A DNA stretch of 33,820 nucleotides from Verrucomicrobiales bacterium (GTDB lineage: Bacteria > Verrucomicrobiota > Verrucomicrobiia > Limisphaerales > UBA9464): positions 1-33,820 of the forward strand of contig SXSK01000163.1 of NCBI GenBank assembly GCA_005793375.1. The letters run 5' to 3'. Positions 1 through 10,943 of the stretch are shown one piece after another (position 1 is the stretch's first letter; every line of letters begins with the position of its first letter). A program made the position numbers and the translations under genes. The notes beneath the pieces were generated by a model. That model did no database searches. It worked only from the letters and a program-made list of their open reading frames with translations, and was not told the origin of the DNA.

Positions 1-3000
1 CTGCAGCGCCGTGAACTTCAACAGCCCCGCGTTCAGGAATGACAGCGGTCCAACTTGCGGCACAACGCTGCCGATCAGCAGCCCCAACTCCGCTTCATCC
101 AGGAACACACCGATCGCCCCCGCTCCTTCAAGCTCCGCCTTCGTCAACTCGCCGTTCAACGCCGCCGCTTCCAGCACCCCAGCCGCCCCGTCCGTGTAGC
201 CCACGAACACATCCACATCCGACAGCCCCGCTTCTAGTGTCCGGATTGGCAGGTTCCAAATCATCGATCCGTCACTGGGCGCTCCCAACTGTCCGTCGTC
301 GTCCGCCGACGTGTGGTAGGCCTTCAGGGCGGTGATCACGGCGTTGCCCACTGGATTGATCAGTCCCGTCTGCACGTCCACGTACTCCACCCCGCCCTTG
401 TTGAAGCTGAACCCACCACTCACGTACACAAAGTCGCTCACTCGCAGCAAGACCCGATCCGCCGACGCTCCAACGACGGGAGAATTGTAGTTCAAAGTGA
501 CAGGATCGCCGCCTGTGTTGATCTCGTAACCGGCGGTGAAGCTCGATTCGAAATTGACGACTGCTGGAGGGCCGAGCGGCGCGCTCGCCCATCGTTTGCC
601 TGTATTGAGCCGAACCTCGATGTTGTCAGCTCTCAGGTCCAATTCCGGAACCCCGACGATTTCCACGGAGTCCGCCGTTGCATTCAGCGCCACAAAATGG
701 AGACCGAGAGCGTCGAAGGTTGGAAGGTCCGTCGAGCGTGCGAGCATGAACACCAAACCGACGTCGATTCCGCCGGCCCAAACGCCGATAGCACCCGAAG
801 AAAGCTCATTTCGTTGGAGAATTCGGTCTGTCCCGGGGTTCAATTCCTCATCGTAGCCAGCGAACACATTGATGTTCGTCGCCGCGATCTGGAAGCTAGT
901 GACGGGAAGATTGTAGATCATCGAATAATCCGCGCTCCGGGCTAGCCCTGGGCCGGAGGGATCCGTCGAAGTGATTACGGACAATCCCGCCGTAACGCCA
1001 CTGGTTGAATCCAACCCCGTGGCTACATCCACCGAGTCATTCAGCAACGATTTGGTGAAAGTGATTCTCCCCGAAACATGCACGAAGTCTTCAAGCGTCA
1101 GAGTGAGATCAGCTGACAACTCGACGGTTGAATTCTGAACCCTAAAACGAGCCGTTCCCGTGACCCCCGGCAGGCTGACGGTTTCGTCGATGGGATTCGC
1201 GCCGAGAAGCTCCTGGATTCCGTCCAAAGCAAATCCCAGTACCATGTCGATAGAAAGTTGCCCCGCACCGCCAAAGCTCGACACCAAGTCTTTCACACGA
1301 CTAAAGGCTTCCTTGGCATAATCGACCGGATTGATGATGCCAAACTGGATGAGTTTTAAGCCGGACTGAACCTTGCTCAACATCAGGTCATCGGAAATCA
1401 CATAACCAGCCGCGGTCGCGTCATCGTCGCCCTTGAGCACCTGAAGTATTTTGCGCTGGGAGTAGACATTATTGGTCAGCCCTGTGTGATCCACTTCCTC
1501 TCCTGCACTGACAGTGGTGATTTCCAACTCGAAAAGCTTGCTGCCAATTCGTGTGTCTCCTTCAAACGTGCCCCAGGCTGAGACCGTGGGCACTGTCCCA
1601 TCCCCTTCGGGTCCATTGGACGATGATTCTTCGTCGAAGTACCAGTCCCCATCCGGGAGATTGCCAATCAGCTGATCGAACGGCAGGATCTCGTTTTTCA
1701 ATCCTTTCGAAAGCTGGAAGCCATTGGTCAATGCAACTCGATCCGTCATGTCGACCGATCCACTGTAAACGATGGTCACCTTGCTAAGGACACGATCCAC
1801 GAAACCATTGACGCCACCATACAGGTTCCCCGCACCACCGTACTGCGCCGGGGCATTCAAATCGTAAATCAGATCGTTCTGAATGCTTCCACTGGGTAGG
1901 CCCGCTGTTAAATCGGGGGCCAAAATCTCGTAGCTGCTGTTACCGTCAAGGTCCGCGAAATCATACGCCGCCAGGAGATCGCGAAGGGTTCCGATATATT
2001 GAGGGATGAAGGCGATTTTCGAAGGGACCGACGCATGGTCAATAATGGAACCGTCCGGATTCTGAATATCCTCGCCAGCGAGCAGGTAGTCGTAGGCCAT
2101 GTCGAGCACTCTACCCAGGACGCGCGAGGCTGACTTGTCGCTGAGATCATTCTGCAAGAAAGCGAAGGTGGAGGTCACCCCCTGATTGGGAACACCCGAC
2201 TGGATCAACTGGTTGACTTGAGGGAGCTGCTTGGCGCCGCCATCATAAGAACGGTTTTGGTAGGCATCGCTTTGAATGTAACTCCTGGCGAGCAAACCTC
2301 CGGTGCTGTGCGTGACAAAGTCCACCGCCGCCAAGGCCGAACCCGTCAGGGTGTCCCAAGTCTCAACCGCCCGGTCGAGCCAATAACCCAGGTAGTCTAC
2401 TCCCGATTCGTAAATAGTATCTGTAATTGTCGGGGCCGTGAGTGCCGAGATCAGCCCATCACTCGTTAGGTCCTGGCGGGCTACCGGCACGCGCCAATCC
2501 CAATTCGCGACGAAGAGGTCGACGTCTCGGGTGTACCCGACATTGACTAGGGACTGAACCAAGTTCGAGTACGCGTTGCTCAACGGCTCGAGGACAAGCT
2601 TGTCCGGGCTCGGGCCCCGATTCAGGAGCCAGTCTTTCACACCTGCCTCGCTCACATCCCCCGCGAAGCTTCCGCCGAACCCCGGGATAAACACAACGGG
2701 TCGCGGCTGCGCTTCGCTGGCAGCCACTACTTCGAGGGTCAACTTGGTCGAGCTGAAGATGGGTTTGAAGAAGAATCCGCTCGAGAAAACCAAACCTTCG
2801 TAGTTATCGAAACTGCCCGAGTAACCATTTGCGTATGTGACGATGTCGAATTCATCGCCCAGGTTCGGGGCAAAAACACCGGTACCCGGATCGATCAAAC
2901 GGACATCCAATGTCCCGCCGAACACCAACTCATCTGTAACGTTGATCTGGTCGTAGCGATCCAGGGGGCTGCTGACGCCTTCAGGCGAGACCGCTGCTGT

Positions 3001-3924
3001 TGCCCCACCAATCTCGATCACCAGAGTACTCGACCGTTCAAGAGTCAGATCGGCGAACTGCAAGAAGCCCGGCGAATTCCCGGGGCTGATCACGCCAAAA
3101 TTTCTCACGGGACCCGCGACCGATCCGTTGCCAGAGAGCGTGCTTCCAAACGGGGTTACCAAACCTTGGTCCGCGAGATGAGGTTCGTCCGAGTTAAGAT
3201 GAATCCCTGGCGGCGCGTTCACAGATGCGCCAATGGCGGAAGACGACGAATTAGGCGTCACTGGTTGGGAACCTTGTGTCGATAAAGAAGAACTCTCCTC
3301 ATCTGGCGAGATGGAGCCTCCGGAGACAATCGATCGGACAAGAACAGGTTCCGCTGGCGGGCCATTCGCCGAACGCAGCGTTTCGGTGAGTTTTTCCGTC
3401 GCTGAATTAAGAAAATCAATGGGCTCGGCTGCGGAAGAAACCTCGGCCTCGTCGGTCAGTACGACGAGCCCTGAGGGAATCTGGGAAGCCAGATCAGCCG
3501 TCGCGAGCTGCCCGTTTCCCGCTTCGCTATTGGCTGAATCTTTCATCTCCGAATCCGAAATTGCGAGAGCCGTCGCTGGATCATTCGCGGCGTCACTGGC
3601 GGTTGACGATTCATCCAGGACGCGGCCGGAAACGCCTTCGGAGAGGTTCAGTTTCTCATCGGTTAAGCCGCCGAATATACCGTCTAGCCCCCAAGCGTCT
3701 CTCGTAGTTTCCATGGGAAGGAGCGCTTCCTCGGAGATCGAATTGCTTAACGTGTGGTGCCAGTCTCCGGAGTGAAGGATGACGTCCGTCGGCGAATCCG
3801 ATCCTGAAGCGAAACCTCCGTCGGGTTCGGAGGACACACTTTGGGAGATAAAATCAGCGGAGAGAAGCAACCGTTGCTCTAGGTGCTCCAATTCGAACAG
3901 ACAGTTCTTTGAACCAGTTTTCAA
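1..3924 (-). CDS. Giant LEPR-XLL-type surface protein with LCAT-like lipase domain and long repeats (3' end outside window)
   Basis: The frame is open from the window edge to a TAA at 3934-3936, giving 1308 residues with the C terminus missing. No ATG precedes the N-terminal motif, so TTG at 3924 is the likely start. Residues 9-25 (LFELEHLEQRLLLSADF) match the LEPR-XLL motif found at the N terminus of giant surface proteins. Residues ~260-300 resemble the autotransporter-associated strand (VISPGNSPGFL). Residues ~405-830 look like an LCAT/PGAP1-type alpha/beta hydrolase: oxyanion-like PVVFIPGFGGSF at 409-420, a nucleophile elbow THSTGG with Ser540, EGDGTVP with Asp775, and DHTGL with His813. 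After ~930 a ~220-residue unit appears twice: DFVHVSG at 946 and DFVYVSG at 1164, SMIYNLP at 1001 and SMIWNLP at 1220, GAIGV at 1044 and 1269. Secretion and lipase or esterase activity are inferred; substrate is unknown. It lies 190 bp downstream of batE on the same strand. Confidence 0.85.
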   Translation of the reverse strand, partial: MKTGSKNCLFELEHLEQRLLLSADFISQSVSSEPDGGFASGSDSPTDVILHSGDWHHTLSNSISEEALLPMETTRDAWGLDGIFGGLTDEKLNLSEGVSGRVLDESSTASDAANDPATALAISDSEMKDSANSEAGNGQLATADLASQIPSGLVVLTDEAEVSSAAEPIDFLNSATEKLTETLRSANGPPAEPVLVRSIVSGGSISPDEESSSLSTQGSQPVTPNSSSSAIGASVNAPPGIHLNSDEPHLADQGLVTPFGSTLSGNGSVAGPVRNFGVISPGNSPGFLQFADLTLERSSTLVIEIGGATAAVSPEGVSSPLDRYDQINVTDELVFGGTLDVRLIDPGTGVFAPNLGDEFDIVTYANGYSGSFDNYEGLVFSSGFFFKPIFSSTKLTLEVVAASEAQPRPVVFIPGFGGSFAGDVSEAGVKDWLLNRGPSPDKLVLEPLSNAYSNLVQSLVNVGYTRDVDLFVANWDWRVPVARQDLTSDGLISALTAPTITDTIYESGVDYLGYWLDRAVETWDTLTGSALAAVDFVTHSTGGLLARSYIQSDAYQNRSYDGGAKQLPQVNQLIQSGVPNQGVTSTFAFLQNDLSDKSASRVLGRVLDMAYDYLLAGEDIQNPDGSIIDHASVPSKIAFIPQYIGTLRDLLAAYDFADLDGNSSYEILAPDLTAGLPSGSIQNDLIYDLNAPAQYGGAGNLYGGVNGFVDRVLSKVTIVYSGSVDMTDRVALTNGFQLSKGLKNEILPFDQLIGNLPDGDWYFDEESSSNGPEGDGTVPTVSAWGTFEGDTRIGSKLFELEITTVSAGEEVDHTGLTNNVYSQRKILQVLKGDDDATAAGYVISDDLMLSKVQSGLKLIQFGIINPVDYAKEAFSRVKDLVSSFGGAGQLSIDMVLGFALDGIQELLGANPIDETVSLPGVTGTARFRVQNSTVELSADLTLTLEDFVHVSGRITFTKSLLNDSVDVATGLDSTSGVTAGLSVITSTDPSGPGLARSADYSMIYNLPVTSFQIAATNINVFAGYDEELNPGTDRILQRNELSSGAIGVWAGGIDVGLVFMLARSTDLPTFDALGLHFVALNATADSVEIVGVPELDLRADNIEVRLNTGKRWASAPLGPPAVVNFESSFTAGYEINTGGDPVTLNYNSPVVGASADRVLLRVSDFVYVSGGFSFNKGGVEYVDVQTGLINPVGNAVITALKAYHTSADDDGQLGAPSDGSMIWNLPIRTLEAGLSDVDVFVGYTDGAAGVLEAAALNGELTKAELEGAGAIGVFLDEAELGLLIGSVVPQVGPLSFLNAGLLKFTALQ

Positions 3925-4114: not shown

Positions 4115-4900
4115 TCACTCCACCACATGCACGTGTTGGATCTGCATCCAACCATGACGCGCTTGGTTGGGGGCTTCGACCAAGGCCCAGCCCTTCTGAG
4201 TCTCCATCACCCAAACTTCTACCCCATCGGTCAGGCTGAACGCCTCCTTGGATTCTTCCAGAGGACTGAAACGAGCCTTGGCTTCACGCAAGATCACCAC
4301 GCCCACACGATGCGCCTGATCGACCCAGATGGCATAGACGGCGATCAAGACCGTGACGGCGCACGCCAACCCCGTGACCACCCGGTAACCACGCAAGTGC
4401 TCGCCCCAAAGTGGCCGGGTGCGGCCCGCAAACAGCACACCGGCGTAAAACCAAGTGACAATACTCGCCAAGCCGATCCATTCGAGCGTCCGAAGCCACC
4501 CAAGCCATTCGCGGTACCATGGCTCCGGCATTGACCCTTTGCCGACTTTGGTTCTCACAAATGCCAGATTCTCTAAGATATCGGAATCGCGTGGCGCTAA
4601 ATGCTTCGCTCGATGATAGTGCGCGATAGCCAAGCCCAATCGCTGCGCCTTGAACCAGCTGTTGGCTAGATTGAACTCGAGCGCCACTGACGTTTGACCC
4701 GCCGAACGGAGACGTTCGTATGCCGTAGCTGCTTCCTGGAACTTGCCATCGTCATAAAGGCGATTCGCCACGTCGAAATCCGCTGCGACGTCCGCCCGCA
4801 ACTCGATCCCCGCCGCAGCCCAGAGCGAGCAAATCATCAGCAAGGTCAATAGACGGCGAAAGTGCGTCATCTGCGCCTCGGGCATTCGTATCAGGCTCAA
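4115..4900 (-). CDS. batE: BatE-like protein: TPR, two membrane helices and SH3-like domain
   Basis: 261 residues from TTG at 4900. A hydrophobic signal segment (~12-36) is followed by TPR-like helices (~37-110, including ALEFNLANSWFKAQRLGLAIAHYHRA), two membrane helices (~133-157 and ~170-195) and a C-terminal SH3-like domain (~197-261, ending GWALVEAPNQARHGWMQIQ). This architecture is that of BatE, the last protein of Bat operons. The TTG overlaps the batD TGA and sits 7 bases after GGAGG, which favours translational coupling. ATG at 4870 has GAGG 5 bases upstream and a more compact signal peptide, so it is a real alternative start. Probably a periplasm-facing membrane protein acting with the other Bat proteins. 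The biochemical role of the family is not settled. Confidence 0.8.
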   Translation of the reverse strand: MSLIRMPEAQMTHFRRLLTLLMICSLWAAAGIELRADVAADFDVANRLYDDGKFQEAATAYERLRSAGQTSVALEFNLANSWFKAQRLGLAIAHYHRAKHLAPRDSDILENLAFVRTKVGKGSMPEPWYREWLGWLRTLEWIGLASIVTWFYAGVLFAGRTRPLWGEHLRGYRVVTGLACAVTVLIAVYAIWVDQAHRVGVVILREAKARFSPLEESKEAFSLTDGVEVWVMETQKGWALVEAPNQARHGWMQIQHVHVVE

Positions 4901-6723
4901 GCGTTTCCCTCCAGTGCCGCCAGAGCTGCGCAGGCCGACTCCGCGCGCGTCCGAACACGTTCCAATTCAGTGACCGTGCTGATGGGAGAGTACCGCGCTT
5001 GGTTGATGGTTTCGAATAGTTCGGCCAAATTCGACAGGTGATCCTCGGCGAGGCCGCGGGGGCAGAGACGTTCCTCCAAAACCGCTTCAGTAATGCCCGC
5101 CGCCGGCATTCCCAGGGTCAAGCCGATCCGTTCCTGGAGGAGTGCACCAAGTGCCGCGAAGAACTCCGGCGCCTGGTTGGCCTGTGCATGAGACTTCAGC
5201 AGGGCCAAGCCCTCGGCAATGGCGCGCTGCGATAAAAGTCGGCGTTGGCGGACTGGATCGTTCGCCAAGCGTTCCCGGTACGACTTCACTGCCGAAAAGA
5301 TCCAATACAGCGGCAATGGCAACAAGCCGAAGGCGAGAGCCCAAGGCGCCCGATCCGAAGCATTCAGAGCCACCATGGAGCCAAATGAGGATCGAATGTG
5401 GCGTAACTCTTCCTGCGTCCCCCCGGCTGGAGTCATAGGCTCCCCACTGACCGCCTGGCGACTTGGAGCCGCTTGAGCCACTTTCGAAGGACGCACGATC
5501 AAGGGAATCGGCGGATGCTGGATCGATTGGTATCGCCGCGTTTCCGGGTCGAAATAGGAAAACCGAATTTCGGGAATGCTGGCCAGCGAGGCAGATTCCG
5601 GTTCGATCACGAACTCGTAAGTTTTGGTTCCCTGGATACCGAGGGCATCGGAGGACTGGAGATGTTCGGTGGGCGGATAGGATTTCCAACCTCGAGTTTC
5701 AGCCAATTGGGGTGGCCCTAACGAATCGAGATTGCCCTCGCCAGAGATACGAACCCGGACCGTAATCGGCTCACCGACGGCCAAGTTCGTCGGGGAAGCC
5801 TCGACTTCCATCTGGAACTTACCGACAGCCCCCGAAAACGAAGCGGGCTTGCCCACCGTTGGCAACGCCACCACTTGCAACACATTGGTACCGCTACTCA
5901 ATTTCACACGCCGGTATTCGCCGCCGCCAAAAAAATCATCCAACATTCCAAAGGGATCGCGACGCCGATTAGACCGATTGGGCACTTGGACCACGGCTTC
6001 GGTCTCAGCCGGCCCCACGTTGAGTGCCCCAAGTTTTGCAGCGGTCGCAGACATGCGCCAAGTGATCACAGCGAATTGGCGATTGTTGATCGTGGTCTGG
6101 GATTGCTGAGCGCCAGCCGACTTGCCGATAACAAACCCCTCGAGTGCTAGTTTAGGGACCGGTGGATTCAGCTCACGGATTTGCAGCGCGGTGTAGAGTC
6201 GAACTTCGACGGGGAAGGTCTCCCCGTAAAAGACCTCCTGACGTGGCAGAACCACTTTTAGACTGACAAACTCTTCATTGCCCCCGGCACCAGCAACCGA
6301 ACTACCCTTCGTGACCTTCAGGGTCAGCGGGCGACTGGAATACGTTTTTCCATCTATCGTGATCGATAACCCAGGCAATCGGACCTCACCGGGTCCCTGT
6401 GGGGTGACGACGTAACGATAGGTGATCGTGGATGTCGACTGGCCGTTGACAATACTGATCGTCCGCGCGGGTCCGGCGTAATTGACAGAGGCATTGGTCA
6501 TCGCTGGAAGCTGAGGAGGCCGCTGCATCTGGATGTCTTCGAAGATCAGATTCAGCATGGTGGTTTCGCCCACCTCCACGGTGTCGTTATCGAAGGACGT
6601 CGTGAACTGGGCTCCCACCAAGTGCAGCATCGCCCACACCAACGCCAAAAGCGTGGCTCCACCGCGATTCGCGGGTAGATACCCATTCGAGATGGCCAGT
6701 GAAGCGCTCACGCGAAAATTCAT
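4897..6723 (-). CDS. batD: BatD family protein (oxygen-tolerance protein)
   Basis: 608 residues from ATG at 6723. An N-terminal hydrophobic segment (ATLLALVWAMLHLVGAQ) is followed by several beta-sandwich, Ig-like segments (DNDTVEVGETTMLNLIFED near the start; TNLAVGEPITVRVRISGEGN later), a membrane helix near residue 465 (APWALAFGLLPLPLYWIFS) and a cytoplasmic helical tail of ~125 residues. This matches the BatD family. The frame stays open upstream to a TTG at 6777, but AAGGA lies directly against that TTG with no spacer, so ATG 6723 is preferred. batE overlaps its stop codon. BatD is thought to be the extracytoplasmic partner of the VWA proteins BatA and BatB; this comes from the family, not from the sequence. 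Confidence 0.88.
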   Translation of the reverse strand: MNFRVSASLAISNGYLPANRGGATLLALVWAMLHLVGAQFTTSFDNDTVEVGETTMLNLIFEDIQMQRPPQLPAMTNASVNYAGPARTISIVNGQSTSTITYRYVVTPQGPGEVRLPGLSITIDGKTYSSRPLTLKVTKGSSVAGAGGNEEFVSLKVVLPRQEVFYGETFPVEVRLYTALQIRELNPPVPKLALEGFVIGKSAGAQQSQTTINNRQFAVITWRMSATAAKLGALNVGPAETEAVVQVPNRSNRRRDPFGMLDDFFGGGEYRRVKLSSGTNVLQVVALPTVGKPASFSGAVGKFQMEVEASPTNLAVGEPITVRVRISGEGNLDSLGPPQLAETRGWKSYPPTEHLQSSDALGIQGTKTYEFVIEPESASLASIPEIRFSYFDPETRRYQSIQHPPIPLIVRPSKVAQAAPSRQAVSGEPMTPAGGTQEELRHIRSSFGSMVALNASDRAPWALAFGLLPLPLYWIFSAVKSYRERLANDPVRQRRLLSQRAIAEGLALLKSHAQANQAPEFFAALGALLQERIGLTLGMPAAGITEAVLEERLCPRGLAEDHLSNLAELFETINQARYSPISTVTELERVRTRAESACAALAALEGNA

Positions 6724-6770
6724 CCCAACCGATTCAATAAGAAGAGATTCATGGCTGCTGCAGTGAGTGG

Positions 6771-7790
6771 TTACCAATCCTTAAAGATTCGATCCTTGCC
6801 CTTGCGAGGCGACTGTTGCACCCGAAACAACATCGCCTTCTCGCCGCCCTTTTGTGCGTCCAACAGTTTTTCCGCCATGGCGGGCGTCATCTTGCCGGTC
6901 ATTGCAGCCTGCCGCTCTTCTTCTGCGTCCTTCTCGGCCTGGGCATCCGGCTTGGACGACGGGTCGCCGTCGGGTTTCTTGTCCTTCTGCGCTGCATCCT
7001 TCTGATCCGGCGACTGTCCCGAACCATCCTGACCTTCCTGCGAATCCTGATCGGATTTGGAGCCGGACTTCTGTGAATCTTTCTTCTCCTGATCCTGCTG
7101 CTGTTGGGACTTCTGATCCTGTGAATCCTTCTCCTTAGAATCCTGGGACTTGGAATCGTCCTGCTTCTGATCTTCGTTCTGCTTGTCCTGATTCTGATCC
7201 TGGTTGTCCTTGTCCTCGTTGGGATCGTCTTTCTTATCCTTGGAATCCGGTTTTTGATCCTTCTTCGGTTGCTTCGGCATCTGCTTCTTTAATTCCTCGA
7301 GCATCCGCTGGACGATCGATTGATTGTGCTGGGCGTCCGTATCGTCGGATTTTAAGGACAAGGCACTGCCGTAATGCTTCAGTGCCTGCTCCCAATGGGC
7401 CATTTTTTCTTCAGGCGATGAGGACTTATCACCGAGTTGATACTGGGTATTGCCGAGATTGTAATAGGTCTTCTGCTGTAGGTCGAGGTCTTGGGTAGCT
7501 AGCGAGCCTTCGAATCCCAGCATGGCATTGGTGTAATCACCGCGCTTGTAAGCGGAGGCCGCTGTGTTGTAGGTCAATCGCTGGTCATCCGGCCGCTCCC
7601 TCAATAGTTTCTGATACTCCGATTGAGCCGCCTCAAAGCGACCGGCTTCATAGTGCTTGCGGGCCGTCGTGGGAGAGGCTGCGTGACTCGTGGTTGTTAC
7701 TGGGAGCCACGCCACCAAAACTAACAACCACAACTCGGTTCGATACCACCGGAACGACTCGCAATGGATGTTCACTAAACAGGCGTTCAT
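6771..7790 (-). CDS. batC: BatC-like TPR protein with extreme D/K/Q/S-rich tail
   Basis: 339 residues from ATG at 7790; an in-frame GTG at 7808 is an alternative. A signal or anchor segment (LWLLVLVAWLPVTTTSHAA) leads into TPR repeats (~44-165: ARKHYEAGRFEAAQSEYQKL, YYNLGNTQYQLG, WEQALKHYGSALSL). From about residue 170 to 295 the protein is almost only D, K, Q, S, E and N, encoded at roughly 6900-7290. It ends with a conserved-looking helix (MTPAMAEKLLDAQKGGEKAM). TPR plus charged linker plus short C-terminal helix is the BatC layout. The linker is unusually long and biased and is probably disordered. The gene follows batB after a short gap and precedes batD. Confidence 0.82.
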   Translation of the reverse strand: MNACLVNIHCESFRWYRTELWLLVLVAWLPVTTTSHAASPTTARKHYEAGRFEAAQSEYQKLLRERPDDQRLTYNTAASAYKRGDYTNAMLGFEGSLATQDLDLQQKTYYNLGNTQYQLGDKSSSPEEKMAHWEQALKHYGSALSLKSDDTDAQHNQSIVQRMLEELKKQMPKQPKKDQKPDSKDKKDDPNEDKDNQDQNQDKQNEDQKQDDSKSQDSKEKDSQDQKSQQQQDQEKKDSQKSGSKSDQDSQEGQDGSGQSPDQKDAAQKDKKPDGDPSSKPDAQAEKDAEEERQAAMTGKMTPAMAEKLLDAQKGGEKAMLFRVQQSPRKGKDRIFKDW

Positions 7791-7794
7791 AGGT

Positions 7795-8853
7795 TCACGC
7801 GGAGACACGGGACCAACTCGGGCTTTCGCTCAAGACTCTCGATTCACCCGAATTCACTCGTCGATGGTCTGCAATGAATACTTCCAGCATCAGGACGAAT
7901 GCCGCCAAGGCGAGCGGCCACTGAAATTGTTCCTGAAATCGGCGCATTTTCTTTGCCGTGCCTTCCCGCTTGGGCAATGGAGCCAACCCGCGCTCATAGA
8001 GTGTGGCCATGGTGCGGCTATTCTGAAGGGGTAAATAAAAACCGTCCGCCTTTTGAGCGATCTGTTTTAGAAGATCCTCATTCAATCTCGACTTCACCGC
8101 ATTGCCCCGGCTGTCCTTCACAAAGACTTTGTTGCCGTACGGATCGGTCGTGAACAGCAGTTCGCCCGACGGACTGCCCAAACCGATCGTGAAGATCCGG
8201 ACGCCCTCTTTCGCCGCTCGTTCCGCCGCTTCTAAGACGCCTTCCTCATGATCCTCGCCATCGGTCATGAGCACCACGATCCGATGACCACCCGAATCTT
8301 TGCTGAAGGAATTCACGGCGATATCGATGGCTTCAGACAACGCGGTGCCTCCCTGCGGAATGATGTCCGTATCGAGCTGCAACACAGTCTGACGAAACGC
8401 TTCGTCGTCGATGGTCAATGGACATTGAAGGAACGCACCACCCGCGAACGCCACTAATCCGAGACGATCTTCCTTGGCCACCGTCATGAGGTCTTGAGCC
8501 GCCAACCGCGCACGCTCCAAGCGGTTGGGCTTTAGGTCGGCCGCCAACATGGATTTCGAAGTGTCGATGGCCACCATGATATCCAGGCCACGAGACCGGG
8601 CCTCCTCTTCGGTCATGCCCCATTGCGGCCGAGCGAGGGAGAACAAAAGCAACGCGACGGCGATCCCCGAGAGGGTGGACTTCAGCACCTGCCGCTTTCG
8701 GGACACACCCACCGTCAATTGCGCCAACAACCGGGATCGAACGAACAGGGATATGGCCCGTTGCTTCTCCCGCCATGCCCACCACAAAAATAGAGCGGTT
8801 GCCGGCAACAGAAAGCCCGCCAAGTAAACGAAGAATGGTTGACCCAGATTCAT
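7795..8853 (-). CDS. batB: BatB: membrane-anchored von Willebrand factor A protein
   Basis: 352 residues. ATG at 8853 overlaps the batA stop as ATGA and has GGAGG 8 bases upstream; this decides the start over GTG 8868. Two N-terminal membrane helices (~8-27 and ~58-74) precede a VWA domain with the MIDAS motif DTSKS at 97-101, the loop GGTALSEAID and the third metal-site segment MTDGEDHEEG. A C-terminal helix (WPLALAAFVLMLEVFIA) closes the domain. It is the second VWA protein of the Bat operon. VWA domains of this type bind metal and mediate protein contacts; the partners here are presumably BatA, BatC and BatD. Confidence 0.92.
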   Translation of the reverse strand: MNLGQPFFVYLAGFLLPATALFLWWAWREKQRAISLFVRSRLLAQLTVGVSRKRQVLKSTLSGIAVALLLFSLARPQWGMTEEEARSRGLDIMVAIDTSKSMLAADLKPNRLERARLAAQDLMTVAKEDRLGLVAFAGGAFLQCPLTIDDEAFRQTVLQLDTDIIPQGGTALSEAIDIAVNSFSKDSGGHRIVVLMTDGEDHEEGVLEAAERAAKEGVRIFTIGLGSPSGELLFTTDPYGNKVFVKDSRGNAVKSRLNEDLLKQIAQKADGFYLPLQNSRTMATLYERGLAPLPKREGTAKKMRRFQEQFQWPLALAAFVLMLEVFIADHRRVNSGESRVLSESPSWSRVSA

Positions 8854-9845
8854 GGCAGCTTCCTCCACACAGTATGGCTCAGGATGAGCTCCAGAGCGAA
8901 CAAGACCGCGCCTGGAAGGACGAAATAGGCATACAATTCTTCGTAAAATTGAAATTTCTTCGCCTCCACCTCGGTGCGCTCCAGCTTGTCGATCTCCTCA
9001 TAGATCTGTTTAAGGGTTTCCGTGCTGTCGGCGCGATAGTACTTCGCACCGGTCTTAGCGGAGATCTGTTTCAGAGTCTCCTCATCGATGTCCACCGGCA
9101 CCCGGACATACATTTTGCGGCCAAACGGATCGGTTTGGGGAAAAGGTGCTGTACCTTGGGTACCAACCCCGATCGTATAAACCTTCACTCCCAACGCCTG
9201 CGCCGCCTCGGCCGCGGTCAACGGTGGTACCTTGCTCGAATTATCCTGCCCATCGGTCATCAAAATGACGATCCGACTCTTCGATTTGAGGCCTCGCAAG
9301 CGATTCACACTCGCGGTCAGTGCCGAACCCACCGCTGTTCCATCGCCAATCTGGCTGACATCCAACCGTTTGAGGTTCGTGAAGAGAAAATCATGATCCA
9401 ATGTGAGTGGCGCCGCGACGAACGCTTGTTTAGCGAAGGCCACGATGCCAATCCGATCGTTTTGGCGCTGATCGATGAACTTGGTGATGACTTCCTTGGC
9501 GATCTCCACTCGATTCACTCGTCGACCCTGCAGCTCAAAATCCTCTGCCGCCATGCTGGGAGAAAGATCGAGGGCAATCACGATGTCAATACCGCTGGCT
9601 TTGACCGAGGAAGTCCCCTGTCCGATCTGCGGTCGAGCCAGTCCCACGAATACCAAGACGAGGGCGAACCACCGGAGAAAAAGCAACACTCGACCGGCTC
9701 GGGAGCGGTTGAGCTGGGTAATCCCTCGCACCAAGGCAGTGCTAGAATACAAAAAGGCGCTCTCACGCCCGCTGCGTCCACGAACCCAAGCCAGTATTAC
9801 TACCGCTGGAATTCCCATTAACCACCACGGCGACACAAAGTTCAT
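8850..9845 (-). CDS. batA: BatA: membrane-anchored von Willebrand factor A protein
   Basis: 331 residues from ATG at 9845, whose first bases overlap the upstream gene's stop as ATGA. Membrane helices at ~7-21 and ~50-71, VWA domain with a complete MIDAS (DLSPS at 93-97, GDGTAVGSAL, MTDGQDNSS), and a C-terminal helix (YFVLPGAVLFALELILS). First of two adjacent VWA genes, the usual BatA-BatB pairing. The two differ clearly in sequence, so this is an old paralogy and not a recent duplication. Four-base overlaps on both sides indicate a tightly coupled operon. Confidence 0.92.
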   Translation of the reverse strand: MNFVSPWWLMGIPAVVILAWVRGRSGRESAFLYSSTALVRGITQLNRSRAGRVLLFLRWFALVLVFVGLARPQIGQGTSSVKASGIDIVIALDLSPSMAAEDFELQGRRVNRVEIAKEVITKFIDQRQNDRIGIVAFAKQAFVAAPLTLDHDFLFTNLKRLDVSQIGDGTAVGSALTASVNRLRGLKSKSRIVILMTDGQDNSSKVPPLTAAEAAQALGVKVYTIGVGTQGTAPFPQTDPFGRKMYVRVPVDIDEETLKQISAKTGAKYYRADSTETLKQIYEEIDKLERTEVEAKKFQFYEELYAYFVLPGAVLFALELILSHTVWRKLP

Positions 9846-10702
9846 GGTGTCGCCTCTCCCCCGCCAGTCGTCCGGCCGGATCCAACGGTTTCCCGCGGCA
9901 TATAACGGGCTTCTCCCGCCAATTCCAGAGATTCCGAGGTGTCCACACCCGATTCCGGGGATGTCAGCGGTGGCGGCGCTTCCGACGAATCAATTTGAGG
10001 AGCCAAATTTGGCGGGCGGATTCCAGCGGTTTCGTCTACCAGTCGCAGTGCGGCTTGGTGCAAGTCCTCAAGCTCGACTCGGGCGGGTTCGACCCGAGCG
10101 AATTTGACAAGATCGCATCGGGTCAGAAAGTCTTCGAGCACCCGTTTGTGTGAGAGATCGAGCACGAAACTTTGTTGTAGGTCGGCCAGAAATTCCTCAG
10201 TGGTCTGGTCCGGCGCGCGCAATCCAAATTGAGCTTCGAGATACGAGCGGGTGATTTCCGCGATCGCAAAGCAGAAGGGCTGGGGTTGATCAATGAGGGA
10301 CAAGGCTTCGCGGAGCCGATCTCGAGCGGTGACGTCTGCGGGAATCTCCTGGGCGGTGGCGCCCCGTTGAGCGCGTTTTTGCCACAATCGCCACGCCCAC
10401 CATCCCAAGCCGGCGACTGCGAGGGCAAACACCCCGCGCCAAACCCACAGCCAACTGGAGGGGATTTCCACGACGCCGCGAATATCCCTGAGTCCGCTGG
10501 GAACGTTCATGGCGGCAGTCCGATTGGTAGGATCGAGCGTCACCACACCATTGCTAACGGCTCCTTCGACCCCAGGTGCCGACGCCAGCATTAGCACCCA
10601 GGCGAGACAGAGCCCAAACCAGACCCGGGAATACGATCCCGGATTTGACCTGAGACAACCATAGTATTGATAACGCGCAGGCAACGCTTCCGAAGTGAAC
10701 AT
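9842..10702 (-). CDS. Bat-operon membrane protein, DUF4381-like
   Basis: 286 residues from ATG at 10702; in-frame TTG at 10744 is possible and no clear ribosome site separates them. It has a signal-like segment (GLCLAWVLMLASAPGVEG), a short extracytoplasmic part (~60 residues), a membrane helix (VWRGVFALAVAGLGWWAWRLW) and a cytoplasmic helical domain with the signature segments YLEAQFGLRAPDQTTEEFL and DLVKFAR. That domain is seen in small membrane proteins coded just before batA in many Bat operons and resembles the BatD C-terminal region. The last ~60 residues are Pro/Ser/Glu-rich. Here it is the first gene of the operon. Function unknown. Confidence 0.7.
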   Translation of the reverse strand: MFTSEALPARYQYYGCLRSNPGSYSRVWFGLCLAWVLMLASAPGVEGAVSNGVVTLDPTNRTAAMNVPSGLRDIRGVVEIPSSWLWVWRGVFALAVAGLGWWAWRLWQKRAQRGATAQEIPADVTARDRLREALSLIDQPQPFCFAIAEITRSYLEAQFGLRAPDQTTEEFLADLQQSFVLDLSHKRVLEDFLTRCDLVKFARVEPARVELEDLHQAALRLVDETAGIRPPNLAPQIDSSEAPPPLTSPESGVDTSESLELAGEARYMPRETVGSGRTTGGGEATP

Positions 10703-10943
10703 CACGGCAGCATGAGTGCCAACCCTGAGACAACGGCGGTTCAAATTCGTTTAATTCGGTTATTGGGATCCTTCGCGACAGCTTTTCGGCCGAAGGTCGC
10801 AAACATCCCAGCAACCGACTCTCACCGCCGTAGGCATCCCCAGCAAGGCTTGGTTGATTGAATCGTTTGTAACTGCTTGAGAATTGACCACATGGCAGGT
10901 CGGTTTCAATCCTAACCAAACCCTGGGTCTCGCTCAAAGCCGC

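Follow-up and report, generated by a model that had tools for sequence, protein, structure and literature searches.

The locus analysed here raises the question of what a giant bacterial protein with an LEPR-XLL N-terminus carries and how it leaves the cell. The window, that is the whole stretch of DNA analysed, is the complete contig C96 (positions 1-33820, starting at base 1) of the assembly G000, which comprises 5.77 Mb in 426 contigs and whose relatives are Verrucomicrobiota. An open frame on the minus strand runs from position 3924 to position 1 and encodes 1308 amino acids (aa) from a TTG codon without a stop up to the contig end. The C-terminus of the protein is missing because the frame leaves the contig at base 1, and a search for the remainder of the gene among the G000 contigs returned only C96 itself and a weak match on C240. 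The relatives of this protein are 4,000-14,158 aa long, and the window probably encodes the N-terminal part of a giant, exported protein. We propose, with somewhat better than even confidence, that this is an exported LEPR-XLL giant bearing an ester hydrolase of the LCAT/lysosomal phospholipase A2 (LPLA2) type and that it is moved by a route composed of M50-HlyD, SecA-like, HlyD, and TolC proteins.

The presence of an LCAT-type lipase domain in an LEPR-XLL giant had been claimed in a sequence-only reading of the window, and the claim is borne out by profile, conservation of the triad residues, and predicted fold. The Pfam profile LCAT (PF02450) has a cut-off of 21 bits; the whole fragment scores 19.6 bits and the domain alone 22.0 bits, which is marginal. 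The profile matches 15 of the 16 family members. The family profile compared with PDB sequences matches Bacillus lipase A (LipA) and human LCAT (E ~1e-5), and matches LPLA2 and Tle4 more weakly. The NWDWR region of the hydrolase aligns with LCAT. Conservation was assessed in an alignment of 16 sequences in which the relatives are 33-51% identical to the window and one is truncated before the Asp and His. The proposed residues were found where the sequence-only reading had placed them; all 16 sequences, the most distant at 33% identity, have Ser540, and all 15 that extend far enough have Asp775 and His813. The triad motifs are beyond chance because of this conservation, and Ser540, Asp775, and His813 form a predicted catalytic triad. 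The Thr of the THSTG elbow had been read as distinctive, which does not hold. The aligned relatives vary between T, S, A, and V at the position preceding His-Ser, and the idea that the Thr is special was rejected on this ground.

The AlphaFold2 model of the domain built from the 16 sequences has a mean predicted local distance difference test score (pLDDT) of 74 and a predicted template modelling score (pTM) of 0.81, with block means of pLDDT of 81-96 across domain residues 11-160. An earlier run with nine sequences was poor (pLDDT 52.5), and LCAT was still the top structural match. The predicted fold is an alpha/beta hydrolase, and the outcome that would have spoken against the sequence-only reading, a different fold, did not arise. 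The top Foldseek match is LPLA2 (4x90, E 7.2e-10); LCAT is also found (4xx1, E 1.4e-7), and ranks 1-11 are all LPLA2 or LCAT. These are followed by Tle4 (4r1d, E 1.6e-6) and by lipases of Burkholderia and Pseudomonas. The LCAT-type alpha/beta-hydrolase fold of the modelled domain is well supported since the profile, the Foldseek ranking, the conservation of the triad residues, and the model agree. Animal members of the LCAT/LPLA2 family have a disulphide in the membrane-binding subdomain. The single Cys in the 1308 aa of the fragment is Cys8, which lies outside the hydrolase domain, so LCAT-type disulphides are absent, and this lack argues for a distant branch of the LCAT/LPLA2 family and not for a close member. 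Hydrolase activity and a lipid substrate are suggested by the predicted fold and the triad residues.

The N-terminus of the protein carries LEHLEQRLLLSAD at about aa 12-24. NF012209, which is a 24-position N-terminal motif for LEPR-XLL with a curated cut-off of 17 bits, scores 20 bits here, in agreement with the sequence-only reading. The same architecture was found in other Verrucomicrobiota. The order of LEPR-XLL, usually ANGPP and/or SPGNSPG, hydrolase, and long repeats is shared by members of Verrucomicrobiales, Prosthecobacter/Verrucomicrobiaceae, Opitutaceae, and IMCC26134. In two relatives, the frame itself shows no LEPR motif; the first is truncated at its start and the second (L084) has the motif upstream in another frame. 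The lipase giant of IMCC26134, a closed genome, is one uninterrupted frame of 14,158 aa. The lipase-giant family is rare, being found in 3 of 388 genomes sampled over the phylum and in 9 of 320 genomes in the order. A class-wide search added only two weak fragments (G827 and G737), which were left out of the analysis, and no relatives of the lipase giant were found in the viral contigs searched.

The gene neighbourhoods of the relatives point to a route of export. The GAF-HlyD, M50-HlyD, and SecA-like genes precede the lipase giant on the same strand in IMCC26134, G388, Prosthecobacter, and UBA7681. In IMCC26134, an NHL-repeat/MBG protein (1,411-aa frame, L024:1506-5738) separates the SecA-like gene from the lipase giant, and a frame of similar size takes its place in G388 and in the Opitutaceae contig. 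The Opitutaceae contig shows the same set of three genes, and the Bin_38_5 contig has the SecA-like gene only, upstream of its lipase giant. All or part of the locus is therefore upstream of the lipase giant in six relatives. The locus, the lipase giant, and a second LEPR-XLL giant (4,595-aa frame) are close together on one strand in IMCC26134. In G664, G655, G008, and G051, M50-HlyD is followed by the SecA-like gene and then by an LEPR-XLL start. TolC and/or a small HlyD are near the locus in several relatives. In the window genome, C350 carries TolC, HlyD, GAF-HlyD, and M50-HlyD one after another; the SecA-like gene reaches the end of C29 and apparently continues at the beginning of C70. The same genes stand beside giants of about 10,500-12,700 aa on alphaproteobacterial plasmids, with LEPR-type N-termini in the three that were read. 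The loci read, to which the search was confined, showed no ATP-binding cassette (ABC) transporter gene next to those for the adaptor, the M50 protein, and the SecA-like ATPase. The putative surface or secreted location suggested by the sequence-only reading gains independent support from the secretion locus beside several homologues.

LEPR-XLL and M50-HlyD also occur in the same genomes. Among 313 genomes of the order, 44 have both, 11 have LEPR-XLL alone, 13 have M50-HlyD alone, and 245 have neither (odds ratio 75), where the M50 set excludes eight genomes with distant matches (at most about 31% identity), a choice made after the table had been inspected. Counted by genus, 26 have both, 5 and 6 have one of them singly, and 81 have neither (odds ratio 70). 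In two alphaproteobacterial relatives, the PqqD domain of the M50-HlyD protein exceeds the Pfam cut-off; its match is sub-threshold in G011 and G664.

This secondary SecA_DEAD/type-I-related locus has been described before, where it was suggested that the SecA-like protein may replace the ABC transporter as ATPase, with the M50 protein as a possible membrane pore (Kamneva, Poudel & Ward, 2015; PMC4452313). Methylobacterium extorquens AM1 is named there as an alphaproteobacterium that has the locus. The broader role of the locus was called completely unknown, its cargo was unnamed, and LEPR, giant proteins, and lipase are absent from the text of that report (PMC4452313). No literature linking LEPR-XLL with SecA/HlyD was found in a search that preprints and most subscription papers lay outside, and the mechanism of LEPR-XLL is not treated where it appears in the literature searched. 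Within this literature, the proposal of a cargo is therefore new.

We give even chances to the wider proposal that LEPR-XLL giants are the cargo of this orphan SecA-like/M50-HlyD/TolC system, with LEPR-XLL as a signal read by PqqD and the lipase as one payload. The position and the co-occurrence of LEPR-XLL suggest that it may act as the export signal. PqqD-like domains bind leader peptides in systems for ribosomally synthesized and post-translationally modified peptides, and LEPR-XLL would be bound by such a domain, which the M50-HlyD membrane protein carries at its N-terminus. The M50 protease would perhaps cut the signal. The calcium-binding repeats would fold outside the cell and hold the hydrolase on a long stalk, where it could cleave or transfer lipid acyl groups, as its predicted fold and triad residues suggest. 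The chain itself would be driven by the SecA-like ATPase and conducted out by the HlyD adaptors and the TolC channel (after Kamneva, Poudel & Ward, 2015). If true, there would be a type-I-like secretion route in which a SecA relative, and not an ABC transporter, supplies the power. The proposal would assign an enzyme activity to one of a group of giant bacterial proteins for most of which none can be named, and it would supply the secretion locus, unexplained since 2015, with a cargo and a signal.

Several observations weigh against the explanation of the window protein as a hydrolase giant exported by this route. The window gene lies behind a Bat operon and is not adjacent to secretion genes. 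Its giant tail and any C-terminal anchor would lie beyond the contig end. The M50-HlyD gene was not found in two genomes with lipase giants, G052 (82% complete) and G572 (93% complete), and the PqqD match in the M50-HlyD protein of the window genome itself is weak (E 0.05). The co-occurrence statistics account for kinship only to genus level. The model has moderate template modelling scores (TM-scores) against LPLA2 and LCAT (0.45/0.53).

Other explanations share part of this evidence. The giants and the SecA/M50-HlyD/TolC locus may be functionally unrelated and both present in the large genomes of the same lineages, as the absence of the locus from 11 of 55 LEPR-XLL genomes and of LEPR-XLL from 13 of 57 locus genomes would allow. 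We consider this rather improbable given that M50-HlyD, the SecA-like gene, and the LEPR-XLL start follow one another in G664, G655, G008, G051, Prosthecobacter, and UBA7681, that the same series with one further gene between occurs in IMCC26134 and G388, and that the genes recur beside giants in Alphaproteobacteria in addition to the odds ratio at genus level. It is very improbable that the domain has the hydrolase fold yet serves for binding or structure without catalysis; nothing specific speaks for it except that activity is itself predicted, and the conservation of Ser, Asp, and His down to 33% identity suggests selection for catalysis.

What the enzyme would do outside the cell allows two further explanations. 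The structural match and the weak profile match to Tle4, together with the suitability of giant repeat proteins for contact-dependent action, would fit an antibacterial or anti-eukaryotic phospholipase on a giant fibre that attacks neighbouring membranes like a Tle effector and does not serve nutrient gain. This is unlikely, as LPLA2 and LCAT are structurally closer than Tle4 and no immunity gene was recognised adjacent to the giant, which is flanked by the Bat operon in the window and by the secretion locus in the relatives. LPLA2 and LCAT are transacylases as well as hydrolases. Since they are the best structural kin and the NWDWR region aligns with LCAT, the domain could be an LCAT-like acyltransferase that modifies surface glycans, sterols, hopanoids, or its own protein, and not a free hydrolase. 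We hold this to be about equally unlikely; true bacterial lipases match too, an acceptor-specific feature was not identified in the domain, and the disulphides of LCAT type are lacking there. The exported ester hydrolase is the explanation we prefer, and the features of the window gene are listed in Table 1.

Table 1. Features of the giant LEPR-XLL gene in the window.
Feature	Position in window	Strand	Basis or remark
N-terminal 1308 aa of giant LEPR-XLL protein	1..3924	-	TTG start, runs off contig; homologue frames up to 14,158 aa
LEPR-XLL motif, candidate export signal	3835..3897 (aa 10-30)	-	NF012209 20 bits; also recovered in genome-wide scan
LRSANGPP motif	3355..3378 (aa 183-190)	-	common to other LEPR-XLL giants, some without lipase
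SPGNSPG beta-strand module, autotransporter-passenger-like	2743..3177 (~aa 250-394)	-	from sequence
ISPGNSPG	3067-3090 (aa 279-286)	-	from sequence
LCAT/lysosomal-PLA2-like alpha/beta-hydrolase domain	1405..2742 (aa 395-840)	-	profile, conservation, predicted fold
Ser540, predicted nucleophile in THSTGG	2305..2307	-	16/16; between strand E139-145 and helix H147-156 of model (domain numbering)
Asp775 in EGDGTVP, proposed catalytic acid	1600..1602	-	15/15 conserved
His813 in DHTGL, proposed catalytic base	1486..1488	-	15/15 conserved; after strand E403-408 of domain model
First repeats of giant tail	1..1404 (aa 841-1308)	-	homologous ~250-aa units in 86% identical relative

The acidic linker between LEPR-XLL and the SPGNSPG module carries LRSANGPP. 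The pattern LR.ANGPP (variants ANAPP and ANSPP) follows LEPR-XLL at a distance of about 120-215 aa in giants with and without a lipase (including L126, L127, and L130), and no description of it as a second N-terminal motif was found in the literature searched. The ISPGNSPG strand motif was located as the sequence-only reading had stated. Among plasmid sequences, the fragment matches a single protein, from Azospirillum and annotated as having an autotransporter domain (42% over aa 255-372), which is in keeping with a passenger-type beta module. Autotransporter secretion was considered because of SPGNSPG; the nearest relative showed no C-terminal beta-barrel of type V in its tail, which may itself be broken off. 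LEPR-XLL was also found in frames of 20,890 (G513:C1:958944), 17,972 (G089:C21:61288), and 17,017 aa (G016:C74:50953). The window genome has two further LEPR-XLL proteins (G000:C240:13813 and G000:C315:13027), and the frame on C240 is 6,247 aa long, of which the first 1,600 aa match no Pfam domain. No Pfam domains were found in the four non-lipase LEPR-XLL N-terminal stretches scanned.

The nearest copy of the hydrolase giant is in G052 (SXMN01000185.1), which is 86% identical and about 5,150 aa long in two frames split by one TGA. Its tail has RTX repeats and EF-hand-like matches. The in-frame TGA is inside the hydrolase (L008:4600-4602) and adjoins a 3-base gap; it may be an assembly error or a sign of gene decay. 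Two other genes are 69% and 63% identical between G052 and the window genome; the same two genes are 80% and 71% identical in G011, which belongs to the window's own family and whose hydrolase is 33% identical. The window and G052 are paired with full support in the tree, and their neighbours differ, being the Bat operon in the window and an acyl-CoA-synthetase-like fragment, identified by eye, in G052. Since the identity of the hydrolase is out of step with the two reference genes compared, and given the pairing in the tree and the different neighbours, the hydrolase giant has apparently been exchanged horizontally between families.

The Bat aerotolerance-type operon (VWA, TPR, and BatD proteins) is at positions 4115-10744 of the window, upstream of the giant gene, and was set aside as a functional partner because the relatives have other neighbours. 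MexE/OqxB-like efflux genes of the resistance-nodulation-division type are at the opposite contig end (31514-33820). A small DUF3467 gene lies between the giant and the adaptor genes in alphaproteobacterial loci (L087, L088, L089, and L141). A Citrobacter IncHI1B/IncP plasmid (NZ_CP142906.1:278995-287728, L143) has successive genes for an Ig-like giant, TolC, HlyD, and a remote relative of M50-HlyD. No SecA-like gene is listed there, and this locus is possibly a variant of the export system.

Compared with known systems, the window protein resembles the LEPR-XLL proteins (NF012209) in its N-terminal motif above the cut-off, its giant relatives, and its repeats, but it has a recognisable enzyme near the N-terminus. 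The hydrolase domain is similar to LCAT and group XV phospholipase A2 (PF02450; 4x90, 5txf) in its predicted fold, the Ser-Asp-His order, and the DWR region, and it exceeds the Pfam cut-off when scanned alone. However, the identity in the structural alignment is about 15%, the domain has no cysteines, its elbow is THSTGG, and it sits inside a giant multi-domain protein. The Tle4 type VI phospholipase (4r1d) is likewise an alpha/beta hydrolase and a structural match (E 1.6e-6), but it is not part of a giant, and no Tle-type delivery or immunity context was seen at the window gene. Classical type I secretion (HlyB-HlyD-TolC) shares the HlyD adaptors, TolC, and the RTX repeats seen in the tail of the nearest relative, whereas a SecA-like ATPase and an M50 membrane protein are found here and no ABC transporter was seen in the locus. 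The GAF-HlyD, M50-HlyD, SecA-like, and sometimes TolC genes of the locus described by Kamneva, Poudel & Ward (2015) are the same set that is found beside the giants or in one genome with them; its description names no cargo, whereas the giants are proposed as the cargo here.

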